Source: Haliotis asinina
Lineage: Eukaryota > Mollusca > Gastropoda > Lepetellida > Haliotidae
NCBI RefSeq assembly: GCF_037392515.1
Contig: NC_090282.1
Span: 53,096,843 to 53,160,842, forward strand
Direction of reading: 5' to 3'
Length of the DNA stretch: 64,000 nt
Positions within the stretch are counted from its first letter, which is position 1. Each line of letters begins with the position of its first letter. Made by a program: the position numbers and the translations under genes. Under the pieces are notes generated by a model that was not told where the DNA came from, made no database searches, and saw nothing but the letters and a program-made list of their open reading frames with translations. Shown piece after piece: positions 2,258 through 50,262 of this stretch.

Positions 2258-3161
2258 GTGACACCTTCACCATCCTTGATCCCGACCATAACCCTGCCAT
2301 CGTCCTTTGACCATCTCAACAAGCAGCACCTGCGCATCCAGTTCACGATGGAAATAGAAGACCAACAGAAACTACCATTTATAGATGTATCCTTATACAA
2401 CTCCCCCCAACAACATTACCTTCTCCGTCTACAGAAAACCCACCCACACCGACCAGTATATTCACTATCTCTCTAACCATCACCTCCAGATCAAACGTGC
2501 AGTTGTCTCCACCCTGACCAGACGAGCCAAATCTATCTGTGATCCTGACCATCTCCAAACTGAAATAGACCATCTAAGAACTACGTTCATCAACCTCAAC
2601 GGCTATCCAAAACAACTTGTAGACAGAACCATGTCATCAACCCTGCAACAGCAAGAACAACGCCAACCAAAACCTGAACCATCCCCAATTAGAAGTAACA
2701 TTCCCTTCCAAGGTCATATTAGCCACCACATCAGCCGACTGCTCAAGAAAACTGCCGGTATAGATGTGACCTTCAAGTCTGACAAAACACTCAAGACCAT
2801 TCTGAAGGCCAATGGCAGATGTACACCAACCAAGACCACTCACAAGCCCAGGGACTGCATTTACAAGCTTATGTGTGACTGTGGCAGTAGCTATGTAGGA
2901 GAGACATCTCGCCCCATAGACATCAGGCTGAAAGAGCACAGAACCTCAGTAGAAAAATCAGATCTAAAGTCAGCCCTTTCTGAACATATTGTCAACAATC
3001 CGTCACACTACATTGACTGGCAAGCAACTACAATCATAGCGACGAACGTCCATGATTGGCGACGACACAAACTCTCAGAAGCCATCAACATCAAGAGATT
3101 AGCCCCACAGATGAACAGAGACCAAGCGGTTTACCTACCCAATGCCTGGGAAATCAATTAG
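2258..3161 (+). pseudogene. Penelope RT C-terminus plus GIY-YIG endonuclease, frameshifted
   Basis: The first part (frame of 2258) reads FDHLNKQHLRIQFTMEIED then LPFIDV, the post-catalytic region of Penelope reverse transcriptases. A frame change at the C-run near 2401 passes to a 258-codon frame opening TFSVYRKPTHTDQYIHYLS, the conserved VYRKPTHTD block. Further on, IYKLMCDCGSSYVGETSRP followed by R.KEHR is the GIY-YIG nuclease, including the Cys residues and the Arg and Glu-His positions expected in canonical Penelope elements. In this family the RT copies element RNA and the nuclease nicks the target to prime synthesis. The frame ends normally at 3161 (NAWEIN stop). The family is certain; loss of activity is inferred from the frameshift and missing N-terminus. 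Confidence 0.88.
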
Positions 3162-3447
3162 ACACGAGGCTTCACCAATCATCTGCTATCCACCGTTACA
3201 GCATCATCCCACCCTTAGTATCTTAGCTTTTGTAAATTGTTAGTCTATCATCCCCCACCATTGTACACCTAACCATACATTGGCTTCTGCTGACTAATCC
3301 ATTGTAACAACACCATACCAGCCTTTGTATATTTTAATCCCCTTTTTCATCTGCTGTTTTAAATACATATACATGCTTAAATTACCTCTCTGGCTTCATG
3401 TACATTACTAGTATATATATCCTGTTTAACTGTTAGTTAGCATCCAC

Positions 3448-3478
3448 CTGACGAAGGGGCAAGGAATAGCACAGAAAC
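3448..3478 (+). ncRNA. Hammerhead-like ribozyme core in Penelope tail
   Basis: CTGACGA at 3448-3454 fits the hammerhead core CUGANGA, and GAAAC at 3474-3478 fits the second core strand. They lie 19 nt apart, about 290 bp downstream of the nuclease stop codon. Stem II pairing between them is weak here (better at 49447). Published work reports hammerhead motifs in Penelope-like elements. The assignment rests on the core words and the position; activity is inference. Confidence 0.5.
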
Positions 3479-3515
3479 GTTGTGAAAACAATAAAGAAGA
3501 AGTTGACATCCATAA

Positions 3516-4194
3516 CATTTTGTCGTGTATTAGAATACCGATTTTTAAATGCCTCTCAAGAACCCCAACTTTGTCTGGTGTGTTTGAAACTTTCTCACCG
3601 AGAAGATGCATCCGTTGCAAATATAATATTCAATACAAATATCTTTTATAATGGAATCAGGAAAGGTACATAAACATTCGGTATGCTATATGGATACTCC
3701 AGGAGAGTAGGTTATTATCTGCTGTTATTAAGTCAAGAGCACAGTCTTGGCCATTTGCACAACTCGGCAAATGTCAATAGCGTTGTCGTTATGTTGTCAC
3801 ATAACTGTCATACCCATACATATCCTTCGAAATGGATAATATTTGAAATACTTTCTCCGAACTCCGAACCTTTTCCCAACAATTCCGTTTTATGTTCCCT
3901 TTTCAGTTATTCATGGAAATGCAAAATTGCATCTGAACAATTTCTGTGTATAAAGTTCTGGGTATTTTTCAAAGAAATAATAATTATCATTGAGACGTTC
4001 AAGTACTAAATAATATAATTGTTATTTGGAAACTCTCAGAAAATTATTACTGAGATGTTTACGTAATATCTGAAGTGTTCTTACCCGTCGGTGGAGGCGA
4101 AAAGATTAATTAAATTCTCGGTATTGTTTGCACATATTTGGTGAAACACCATCACATTATTTCACTTAATATCACACTGATTTCGTAGTAACTT
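3516..4194. other. Non-coding stretch, nothing recognised
   Basis: Chance frames up to 108 codons occur on both strands, with no conserved motif. I see no inverted or tandem repeats. The stretch separates the Penelope tail from the LINE below. Confidence 0.4.
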
Positions 4195-23930: not shown

Positions 23931-24238
23931 TTAAGGCTGGAAGTCTGACTGGATTGGTGTCGTAAGGATACTGCTGTTTCACAGCGTCACCTACATCATA
24001 ACACTCTACTGCTAGACACATATTAGATGATCCTGCGCACTAAACACATTTGTGACAAGAGAGGCGGTACAACGAATTGGACGAGTACACTTGGCTGCTA
24101 CAGGTAGCTTGACGATTATGCACGCGCAATACATGCTAACCGTGACATGAAATCAACACCGCTACTGATTAACACCTGTCTCGCTACTGTTTTACACCTG
24201 TCTCAATACTGTTAAACAGATTTCAGTTGTAGTAAAAA
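23931..24238. other. Leader before DDE transposase
   Basis: No reading frame of note. It includes ctactg...acacctgtctc words repeated near 24165-24205. Possibly the 5' part of the transposon encoding the next gene, but no terminal inverted repeat could be matched. Confidence 0.35.
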
Positions 24239-25508
24239 ATGTCCAAGTTAGGAAAACATGGGCAAATAGTTCATTCACAGGCAAGGGAGATAACATACAA
24301 TGTTATCATGTATATGGACAAAAATTGTGCAACCAAAGCAGATTCTCTTTTACAAAGTAGCCTTGCTACTGGACTCTCAACGGCAACTTTAAAGCGCATT
24401 AAGGCAAAAGGTGGTAGGAGTGCGAGTGGACGTACATTTATCAGTCCCACTAAGTTGCGCAAACCCAAAACGTGCAGTTACAAACTTGATGATTTCGACC
24501 GGTATGCACTCCGTCAATTTGTACAAAGTCTATATGGCGTAAAACAACAACTACCCACTCTGCATACGATGTATGATATGGCAAAGTGCCAGTTGAACTA
24601 CAAGGGTTCTAAGGAAAGTTTTCGACAAAATCTCAAAGACAAAGGGTTTAGGTGGCGAAAAACGCAGTCAAACCGTAAACTTTTACTGGAACGTAAAGAC
24701 ATTGTTGCGTGCAATAAAGAAATACAGAGAAGAAAATCGAACACTCATCTTTATCGATGAAACATGGTTGCATGTACACCACATTGTCCCAAAGTGTTGG
24801 CAACTTCAGGGTGAAGTCGTAATAAATGGGGCTCAACCTCCGTCTGGCACCGGACCTCGGCTTATTGTGGTTCATGCAGGGGGTGAAAACGGTTTTGTTC
24901 TAAATGCTTTGCTTGTTTTTGATTCCAAACTCAAATCAGTAGACTATCATGACGAGATGAACTTTGATAATTTTTCCAAATGGCTCCAGGAAAAGTTGAT
25001 CCCAAACCTTCCACTGCACTCTGTCGTCGTTATGGATAATGTACCATATCATAGCAAGCAAGTGGACAAATGTCCGACAACCGCCAACAGAAAAGGTGAC
25101 ATAAAAGCGTGGCTACAAAGGCACAATATCTCATTTGATGAGAAAATGCTTAAAGCCGAACTATTGTTTCTTGCAAAATCCAACAAATCGGGCCCTGTCT
25201 ACAGAGTAGACACGATGTTGAAGCAACATGGTCATGATGTACTACGTCTCCCTCCATACCACGCAGAACTAAACCCGACTGAGTTAATTTGGGCAAATGT
25301 GAAAAGTTCCTTAAGAGTGGCCATAAATGAAAGGATGTCTGCAATCGGTGCAAAAGAATGGTCGGAATGTTGTAAACATGGTAAAACAATTGAAGATGGT
25401 TACTGGCAACGCGAAATCGCAGTAGAAAGGGAAATTGACAGACTAGTGATTGACTTGGACTTGCAAGTGATTCAGACACCGAGACTGATTCAGAGAGTGG
25501 TAATTTAA
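24239..25508 (+). CDS. IS630/Tc1-mariner-type DDE transposase, one frameshift
   Basis: Two overlapping frames (24239-24760 and 24702-25508) together give about 420 residues. The first holds the DNA-binding half: a helix-rich start (MSKLGKHG...), TGLSTATLKRIKAKG and an RKPKTCSYKLDDFDRYALRQ segment. The second holds the catalytic half: IFIDETWLH (Asp 19 of that frame), VVVMDNVPYHS (Asp 112) and PPYHAELNPTELIWANVK (Glu 194). These are the DDE_3 landmarks of IS630/Tc1/mariner. Between the last Asp and the Glu lie 81 residues, far more than the 34-37 of Tc1 or mariner; the nearest group I know is Sailor (DD82E). One frame change near 24715 separates the halves; it may be a mutation or a missed short intron. 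Only this break spoils an otherwise complete protein, so the copy is young. Terminal repeats were not identified. Confidence 0.85.
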
Positions 25509-41460: not shown

Positions 41461-42618
41461 TAAGACTGCCATTTACTAACATCATGGTTATCTTTAAGGT
41501 CATGGTTAAAGGCATGTTTAAAGTTCTATCCATCCCATAATGTTTGTTTACTTCCCTCAATGTCAACAATGGAGGCACCAAATGAGAAATCAATGCCCGA
41601 AAACCTAAAAACCAATAAAGAAAACATGTAGGAACTTTTTGGCGGAATTTTTGGAAAAAAGTTTTGGTAGAACTAGTCATAGTATGGACGTAGTTTAAGT
41701 AGTTTCACAATTCATTAAAAAAGATGACAACATACTACTTGCATAAAACAATACCACATTTTAGTTGATGTCATGGTATGTTTTGTCTGTTTTTGGGGTT
41801 TTTTTTTTAGTTCTGAAAATCTGAAATTGCTTTGTATCACACCCAATTTCCAATATAAAATGTCTCGGCTTCTATGCCAGAATGCAACATTCTTTAGACA
41901 AAACATAAACTGACTGATTTTACCACTGAATATATCAAGAATATTAACGATGTGCCAAATTTACATCATAATACTGAAAGTGTAATCAGAAAGATTGGGT
42001 AATTGTGTTTACTCTTGTTCAAACGACATTCACCTCAAAGAAGTTACCTATTATGTACAACAATGTTGACGGATGACATCACTATAGTACATGACCGATT
42101 TCATACAAAATGGTGACTTCGGTGACAAAGGGTACGTAGGGTTTTGAAAGGACTCTTCCTTTGATTTAGGGATCATTTGTACATAAATATGACATGTATG
42201 TAATTTGAATCGAACCTGTGTATTGTGATGTTTTTACTGGTTTCATGGTAAGTATGAGAAGAGACCAGAAATACTGATAATTACTGCTGTTGTTCTACAT
42301 GATTTTGCATCAGTCATGGCATCACGCTGCACGGAAACTTTGACAAGTCATTGCATACTATCTATTTTTGATTTCCTGCTACCATAATCTCGCCATGCAC
42401 AATCTAAAGGTATTGAGCTATTACAAGCAACGAATAGACGGTTGGATGTCAGAAAATTTCTTTAAATGCAACAAATTGTAAAATCTGAATTTTTCTTTGT
42501 TTAAACTTGAAACAAGCGCAGCCTTTCGAGCACAGTGTTCGTTTTCACACCGAATATCTTTCTTTTCCTTTTATCTTCACAGATGGTAGTGGTGACAAAG
42601 ACCTTTTGTAATTTGATT
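41461..42618. other. Non-coding stretch, nothing recognised
   Basis: Chance frames up to 85 codons, no motif. A poly-T run is at 41792-41808. No repeat relation noted. Confidence 0.4.
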
Positions 42619-42799
42619 CTTCAAGGCATTTAGAAGTTGGCGTAGCAATACAGGACAATTTTTATGGATAGCAACTTCTTGAGTTTATTTTCAGGGCTTA
42701 TCCTACCCCCCTCATCAGCTGATGAAGAAGCTGGGATAATCCCTGAAATGTCGTAAAAATAATCTCAAGAAGTTGCTATCCATAAAAATTGTCCTGTAC
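42619..42799. mobile_element. Mini Penelope-derived element, inverted dimer
   Basis: 181 bp between near-identical 16-bp direct repeats (ctttt[g/c]taatttgatt at 42603-42618 and 42800-42815). The 35-bp arms tacaggacaatttttatgga and its inverse, continuing to cttgag, mirror each other. At the centre, tcatcagctgatga is a palindrome that places CTGATGA on both strands, each followed about 19 nt later by GAAA. Each half therefore looks like one Penelope tail with a hammerhead-like core, joined head to head. Confidence 0.75.
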
Positions 42800-42826
42800 T
42801 TTTCTAATTTGATTGTAAAATATAAT

Positions 42827-48538: not shown

Positions 48539-48935
48539 ACCCATGTTTTCATAGCTATCTCAGCGCTAAGAAGTGAATGTCTCTCAGTTGTAAGTGTGTT
48601 AATGTATGGTTAAGATCATCTTCTAAAGTGTCCACCATATACTCGACAAACCTGTCATGCATACGCAGTTCACTATCCGAATAGTCTAGAATGTTTATAT
48701 CATAAGCACTATATACTTTCTCTCGTCCTTGGTTCTTCACAGCACCATGAACAGGACGTTTGGTTGAATGACCAATGCCATCTTGCCAATGTAAACAACA
48801 CGGTTAACTATTTAGCAGCAGTCCATAGGTGTGTTAACTTAAAATGCCAGGATAACAGTGAGAAACGCTTTTAACACTTGGTTAACTTTAATGGCTGGTT
48901 AAAAGGATTTAACCAGTGGTTAAAAGATAACCAAG

Positions 48936-49562
48936 AATGAAGATTTTTATGGATATCAACTTCTTTATGAGGTAGGTAAGGATGTACTCGGGTAGATTGG
49001 CTATACATGAATTACTTAGATAGAATGTACACAGGTAGATGAGATTAATTTATCAATAAGTGTACATTCTATCTATGTAATTCATGTATAACCAATCTAC
49101 CCGAGTACATCCTTACCTACTTGTGTTTGTACATCATCAACCCTCATGTAAACATGCTCATCCCCTATTGTGTGTTATGTACATCATCCTATCATGCGTA
49201 ATGTATCACCATTGGCTTCCATCCTCATCCCCAATCATGTACATCGTCCTTACCCCGTATCTGTGTTATGTAAACATATCCAATCAACTGTAATGCATTA
49301 CCATTGGCTTCCATCATTGTTATCTTAACTATCGGCTTCCTATCAGTGCTTGTTTATACTAGCTTTCGTTAACTCATTCCACTTGTTACTTTGTTATTGT
49401 TTTACCTGTACATATAAATACACCTCTGTATCCCTTTCTCAATCACCTGATGAAGGAGTAAGCATTAACTCCGAAACGTTGTGTTCTCTCATAAAGAAGT
49501 TGATATCCATAAAAATCTTCATTCTTATGTATTTTCACTTCTAAATGACATTCAAAGACTTG
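48936..49562 (+). mobile_element. Short Penelope-derived element with 14-bp duplication
   Basis: 627 bp between perfect direct repeats AAAAGATAACCAAG (48922-48935 and 49563-49576). The 3' part carries a hammerhead-like core and ends taaagaagttgatatccata. An inverted piece of this tail lies at the left edge (48933-48969). Next to it, an inner inverted repeat (48972-49031 and 49061-49120, 60 bp with two differences) forms a large hairpin. There is no coding sequence. Inverted 5' fragments are known for Penelope-like insertions. Confidence 0.85.
49447..49485 (+). ncRNA. Hammerhead-like ribozyme core
   Basis: CTGATGA at 49447-49453 is a perfect core word. GGAGT (49455-49459) pairs with ACTCC (49468-49472) as stem II over an 8-nt loop. 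GAAAC (49473-49477) gives the second core strand and is followed by GTTGTG as in the other tails. This is the best hammerhead match in the window. Stem I and the cleavage site were not resolved by eye. Confidence 0.65.
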
Positions 49563-49611
49563 AAAAGATAACCAAGTTTTGAACAAGCGGGCCCAGGTAG
49601 CAAATGGCTAC

Positions 49612-50262
49612 TGTTAACAAGAGTCATCAGAAGGTGACATATCCCCCCAGACCCCTACATATTTGAAAGGACAAATCATCTGACAGTTACTTATTGTGTT
49701 TTTAGACCAAGTCTGAATTGTTCCCATGGAATTCATGAAAAATATAAATGCCATATATCTGTAATCGGAAAAAGTCACCATTTCAAGATCTGTCTCATAT
49801 ATCTGCCGAGATCTTTTGAAAGATATGAAAAGGTTTTCGAGTTGTGCTACGGTAACGAAGTTAGCAACGTGTTCATGGAACCGAGAAAATAATACATCAT
49901 AAAAACCTGTAAATAGCAAAAGGCACCACTTTGGGGTCTGCCACACATATCTACCAAGTTTCACTGACAGATATTTAGAAGTTTTTGAGTTCTGCTTCGG
50001 AAACGAAACACAACTCTCACTTTTGAGACCCAACCATAAGACCAACACCAAAATGTTCCATGGAAAAAAAATAAAAAATATAAATGCCAAAAATCTGTAA
50101 ATAACAAAAGGCATAACCATAGGCTGAGATTACTATATCTATCGAGTTTGGTCTAAAAATATTGAATGGTTTCTGAGTTATGCTCCGGAAACAAAATGAT
50201 TACGGATGGATTGACGAGGCGTCGACTATATCCCCCGCATTACATGCTGGCGGGGGATAACA
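49612..50262 (+). repeat. Interspersed repeat with terminal hairpin
   Basis: It opens gttaacaagagtcatcagaa, and blocks with ggtctgccacacatatctac and ttttgagttctgcttcggaa recur at roughly 120-170 bp. Near the end come gattacggatggattgacga and a perfect hairpin, TATCCCCCGC (50229-50238) with GCGGGGGATA (50250-50259). Relatives are at 34560, 38890 and, by the end structure, 10010. The family is non-coding; a strong 3' hairpin recalls Helitron ends, but I cannot show this. Confidence 0.75.

Follow-up and report, generated by a model that had tools for sequence, protein, structure and literature searches.

How Penelope elements integrate is treated as unsettled in the available parts of PMC11167929 and PMC3846280, where self-priming and internal initiation are the ideas under discussion. 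The endonuclease-containing Penelope of Adineta vaga, as presented in the available text of PMC3846280, shares much of its layout with the copies described here: an inverted pLTR adjoins the element and is 37 bp shorter than the full one, so that an inverted, shorter left arm is a known PLE arrangement; a 31-bp tail stands at one inverted pLTR; a TATA box is followed by an Inr-like TCACT; and short target duplications and internal deletions occur. The tail is called optional there, on few copies, whereas here one tail was found in 52 of 52 double-ended insertions. For Poseidon of Anolis carolinensis (PAc), the accessible sections of PMC11167929 (Frangieh 2024) report a protein that cuts and extends both target strands in vitro, two adjacent internal RT start sites bounding the tail, and a hammerhead beside the start codon, all of which resemble what we describe below. 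Unlike the genomic insertions analysed here, the start site was alike for both strands in vitro and strict pairing was not seen in that part of the work, which leaves tails per insertion uncounted.

Metazoan non-LTR retrozymes, in the available portion of PMC7229834, are likewise short, non-coding, hammerhead-bearing and flanked by target duplications, with PLEs suggested as their mobiliser. They are, however, built of 150-450 bp tandem repeats, carry type I hammerheads of canonical form and have circular RNAs, whereas the element studied here has one minimal core and consists of PLE 3' sequence in a single copy arranged head to head. It lies in a 64-kb stretch of Haliotis asinina DNA, hereafter the window, to which all positions refer.

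Structure and family of the inserted element

The element is one shortened copy of a large Penelope-like (PLE) family. Its parts are listed in Table 1, with element position 0 at its right end. From left to right, they are an inverted piece (-36/-39 to -74), a second inverted piece (-442 to -531) and a forward arm (-502 to 0), which comprises a 3' untranslated region, a promoter-like part, a hammerhead-like core and the tail. The duplication ends in AAG, which extends the match of the tail-less end to -36. As a source of the -74/-442 skip, an intron was rejected: by eye, no GT...AG is present on either strand.

Table 1. Features of the element and its flanks in the window.
Feature	Positions	Strand	Remark
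Left copy of 14-bp target-site duplication	48922..48935		AAAAGATAACCAAG; 14/14 identical to 49563-49576
Whole insertion	48936..49562		627 bp, perfect 14-bp duplication on both sides
Tail-less end, inverted element positions -39 to -74	48936..48971	-	outer edge at putative RT start site B
Inverted element positions -442 to -531	48972..49061	-	includes 27-nt loop 49033-49059; preceded by 367-nt skip (-75 to -441)
Forward arm, element positions -502 to 0	49060..49562	+	97.5-99.2% identical to right arms of 39 other loci
TATA-box-like TATAAATA	49413..49420	+	first base 32 nt upstream of probable transcript start
TCACC, probable transcript 5' end	49443..49447	+	49445 = -117
Hammerhead-like core CTGATGA - stem II - GAAAC	49447..49480	+	core pattern and stem II
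Stem II, GGAGT/ACTCC	49455..49459 / 49468..49472		8-nt loop
35-nt tail, right end only	49528..49562	+	outer edge at putative RT start site A
Right copy of target-site duplication	49563..49576		matches left copy
Inner inverted repeat	48972..49032 / 49060..49120		61 nt, 97% complementary, 2 differences, 27-nt loop
Outer inverted repeat	48924..48971 / 49488..49535		48 nt, 92%
Exact reverse complement pair	48933..48971 / 49488..49526		

An earlier, sequence-only reading had described a non-coding, Penelope-type element without RT, with a perfect 14-bp duplication, nested inverted repeats, a stretch of its own end region turned round at the left edge and a hammerhead-like core with a clean stem II. 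All of this is borne out, the core as a pattern-based candidate; no stop-to-stop ORF of at least 150 aa overlaps the element, and having no RT it took its enzymes from elsewhere. The same reading had considered a simple truncated copy with an inverted part unique to this locus, and had asked whether copies sharing the interior all carry the inverted piece. Truncated it is, relative to a fuller element, but only its particular deletion is unique. The right arm is shared by the 39 other scored loci, and at 24 of these, not at all, an inverted arm ends within the fetched stretch about 35 nt short of the element end, with the same outer edge as in the window.

These 39 loci (L009-L047), selected for long matches, were fetched after a search of the species' own genome with the window element, which gave 1,848 candidate places; 40 were scored, window copy included. 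Allowing up to one mismatch, a 26-nt end motif is present at 854+835 = 1,689 places in the 1.14-Gb genome, and its reversed control at 0+0. Between the arms of family copies lies a variable amount of coding sequence. An ORF of 549 aa in L018, and frames in L013 that are related to it, run into the shared 3' region, which in the window is 49060-49562 and is common to the RT-bearing longer copies. The relatives show RVT_1 similarity at E=1.4e-6 (28.7 bits, just below the 29.6 cut-off) and a weak one to telomerase RT chains (E=0.003, with AbiK at 0.0003 in the same listing). Coding frames with RT similarity in the longer copies mean that the Penelope-like family has coding members, the window copy being one without the coding part. 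In the endonuclease-like end of the relatives, inspection by eye shows IYQIPC...LYIGET, a candidate GIY-YIG motif; in Pfam, no GIY-YIG match was found at their C-terminus at E<=10. Altogether, the family combines PLE-type traits (inverted pLTR-type copies, one of them shorter, a tail at one end and, in the window, a 14-bp target duplication) with a telomerase-like RT that is weakly recognisable, through the relatives, the window copy having none.

Two other places in the window hold frames of interest by eye. The 258-aa frame at 2385-3161, without a Pfam match, resembles a PLE endonuclease C-terminus; it is followed at ~3400-3550 by a hammerhead-like CTGACGAAGG...GAAACGTTGTG and then by a 3' end resembling the main family's. 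At 24236-25508, two overlapping frames look like a Tc1/mariner-type transposase.

The full 627 nt fold far better than 20 shuffles (z -15.6), because of the inverted repeats. The two mismatches of the inner repeat are split, one per arm; of 61 other arms, 59 show the family state at the two sites, and a single one shares the base of the window's right arm at a mismatch site. This pattern suggests that the window's two arms were identical when inserted.

The pattern CTGA(T/A)GA...CGAAAC has a single match on both strands of the window, at 49447. Stem II is the sole helix of the centroid fold; the 65-nt stretch around the core folds no better than shuffles (z -0.27), and 49482-49562 shows no clear folding excess over them (z -1.02). 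At gathering scores Rfam gives no match anywhere in the window, and its 12 matches at E<=1 in 48800-49700 include no hammerhead family. Because Rfam recognises no hammerhead, it is the core pattern that argues for a candidate ribozyme. By the NUH rule, the putative cut would fall after 49480, at about -81.

Tails of double-ended insertions

In each of 52 double-ended insertions, the 35-nt tail is present at one outermost end and absent from the other: none has two tails and none has no tail. A first set of 27 consists of 24 loci, the window copy, and L013 and L040 (completed by the C1 stretches L082 and L083). The other 25 are head-to-head pairs from the C1 listing, made with the 26-nt motif, which sits just inside the end, is common to tailed and tail-less ends and is thus blind to the tail. 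The 27 were found with a tail-containing query and the 25 independently of that choice; under an independent 50:50 choice of tail, the probability of 25 out of 25 is 3e-8. The C1 sample comprises the first 100 listed motif places, all but 12 of which were fetched, a few being covered by earlier loci; being exact matches, on one contig, its copies are young. Left out of the 52 were L065 (two arms in the same orientation), 24 single places (L084-L107), and the 15 of the 39 long loci that had no second recognised end in reach, L013 and L040 among them until completed. An additional short copy lying alongside the insertion in L032 was removed by hand, and for L050, L059 and L060 the comparison was limited to the outermost ends.

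Target duplications of at least 8 bp flank 49 of the 52, against 29 of 2652 mismatched pairings of flanks, which supports reading such duplications as marks of insertion. The exceptions measure 7 bp (L016, L055) and 4 bp (L079/L080); the 14-bp duplication of the window copy was scored as 10 bp in this count, its flank being shortened there. Since L020, L021 and L040/L083 share one duplication, 50 of the 52 are independent.

Among the 24 places with one recognised end only, 10 have the tail and 14 do not; most of them may yet be double-ended, as is L093, where another arm with a tail is present. In L084 (no tail) and in L100 (tail), a single arm is flanked, by eye, by a short duplication, so either start may serve alone, and perhaps not every insertion needs the pairing.

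The window itself holds a diverged mini-PLE (42619-42798) whose tail (~30 nt) is on the left only, in agreement with the one-tail rule. With its duplication (42603-42618 / 42799-42814; 16 bp with one mismatch by eye, a 10-bp exact core computed), it spans 42603-42814 as a head-to-head hairpin around a hammerhead-like relic. The available text of PMC11167929, PMC3846280 and PMC7229834 does not state one tail per insertion; the rule may already be in print, possibly in the subscription literature.

Proposed insertion mechanism and its alternatives

The window copy ends in the family's two standard ends, tail-less on the left and with the 35-nt tail on the right, inside its 14-bp duplication. We read it as a single double-ended PLE insertion, moved by the RT/endonuclease of coding relatives in a two-start, two-strand scheme, and give this reading a probability of about 0.8. 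The endonuclease would cut both target strands, probably ~12 bp apart. One strand would offer its 3' end as a primer for RT at start site A (right end, tail kept), from which 503 nt would be copied; the 3' end of the other would prime at start site B, which lies 35 nt deeper in the element (left end, tail-less). The site-B cDNA would take up 36-39 nt, skip to -442 and continue for 90 nt more, and the head-to-head cDNAs would be joined at a 2-nt overlap. The coding part would be left uncopied, so that the window copy would have depended on enzymes in trans. Other double-ended copies would arise by the same two starts on two strands. As judged from sequence, the one-tail rule fits the start sites in the available text of PMC11167929, with one site per target strand; the genomic rule would add that the two ends of one insertion use different sites.

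In such a scheme, a specific first cut would feed start A and a looser second cut start B. The tail-side cut edge is enriched for AC/A (the slash marking the edge), with 27, 25 and 23 of 44 (p 3e-5, 8e-8 and 0.002), and the other edge is mainly without A (2 of 44), at positions picked after looking and with edges that can shift through chance matches. Arms are truncated independently, the tail-less one being longer than the tailed one in L020 and L043. Their divergence is 0.46% within and 1.25% between insertions; the partner is the nearest arm, or tied, in 13 of 18 insertions, and in the remaining 5 of 18 the tailed arm has its nearest relative in some other copy. Both arms thus seem to stem from the same source RNA or locus.

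Given the instability of long inverted repeats, a fuller double-ended insertion could have lost its middle and part of its left arm afterwards: the -74 to -442 skip could be one such palindrome deletion, and the absent coding part another. That history needs two separate deletions, however, while similar skips occur elsewhere at other positions (-695 to -1670 in L009, -66 to -435 in L039, -68 to -295 in L081) and the C1 sample has many short double-ended copies; we consider this history unlikely.

Self-priming, proposed as a hypothesis in the available part of PMC3846280, has a cDNA or antisense transcript fold back and prime its own second strand. The resulting head-to-head palindrome would agree with the palindromic centres and the near-identity of arms within an insertion, but it should have the same outer end on both arms, against one tail in 52 of 52, and neither arms of independent length nor duplications, 8 bp or longer in 49 of 52, follow from it. 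This makes self-priming quite improbable.

Twin priming of the L1 type on one RNA recalls the short inverted middle piece that abuts a forward piece in at least 3 of the 39 long loci (L024, L025, L035). An L1-like inverted piece lies upstream of the 3' end and excludes it; the inverted arm of the window copy instead begins at the element's 3' end (-36 to -74), as in the other counted copies, an outcome that priming twice on the same RNA would not give, and we consider it very improbable.

Hardly credible at all is the proposal of the sequence-only reading that the element founds or belongs to a non-autonomous hammerhead Penelope family of its own, comparable to retrozymes and amplified via circular or dimeric RNA: the copy is non-coding, has a hammerhead-like core and was moved in trans, and the genome contains one tandem array (L050) besides short hairpin copies without coding sequence, but its left-arm junction, with up to 3 mismatches allowed, matches only itself in the 1.14 Gb, so that no family of such copies is found, 48850-49650 contains no tandem unit of 150-450 bp, the core pattern is single in the window, 49060-49562 is common to RT-bearing copies, and the inner junctions of short copies differ among copies. 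The window copy is best read as a single event.

Short hairpin copies and probable transcript start

Of the 54 arms in the C1 set with a 5' end closer than -200, 33 terminate between -121 and -111, and these come from 20 loci; the long loci, picked because their matches were long, have 1 such arm among 67. The p value of this pile-up was computed against a uniform expectation, and ATCACCTGAT, being locally self-complementary, may contribute to it. The stop point is TCACC, 32 nt downstream of the first base of the TATA-box-like TATAAATA; a TATA box and an Inr-like TCACT are reported for an A. vaga pLTR (available text of PMC3846280). From this we infer a TATA-box-placed transcript start at about -118/-117. 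An RT starting at a site copy so near the RNA's own 5' end would run off after ~80-120 nt, and run-off from both strands would leave hairpins of ~200-230 bp, a size found in L051-L054, L056 and L057. The short non-coding copies look as if RNA of the coding element had been copied incompletely.

Self-cleavage was rejected as the setter of arm lengths: 13 of the 54 arms end at -83 to -63, near the putative cut, but without a pile-up at -81, in copies found by a motif reaching to about -61, so that shorter arms are invisible.

Two further copies have unusual structures. L050 holds, at 191-978, the most retrozyme-like structure found, an array with motif spacings of 226, 226 and 176 bp; its units carry hammerhead pieces in both orientations and an inverted 97-nt PLE coding piece (-1840 to -1744), and it is framed by one tail-less and one tailed end and an 11-bp duplication. 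In L067 (79-886), an inverted 5' piece and a coding-region start continuing from the tail are followed by the hammerhead end again, which looks like template switching.

It is about an even chance that double-ended integration is obligately asymmetric, with a paired complex that uses sites A and B, never the same one twice, and so leaves one tail, and with transcripts starting at the hammerhead that would yield swarms of ~230-bp hairpins as by-products. The window element itself is ordinary; the comparison of copies is more informative. A strict one-tail rule, if valid beyond the 52 insertions, would tie genomic layout to the start sites seen in vitro and give a yes-or-no prediction for a biochemical assay. 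The hairpins would give a simple origin for the kind of short, non-coding repeat with a hammerhead that could otherwise be mistaken for a separate non-autonomous family.
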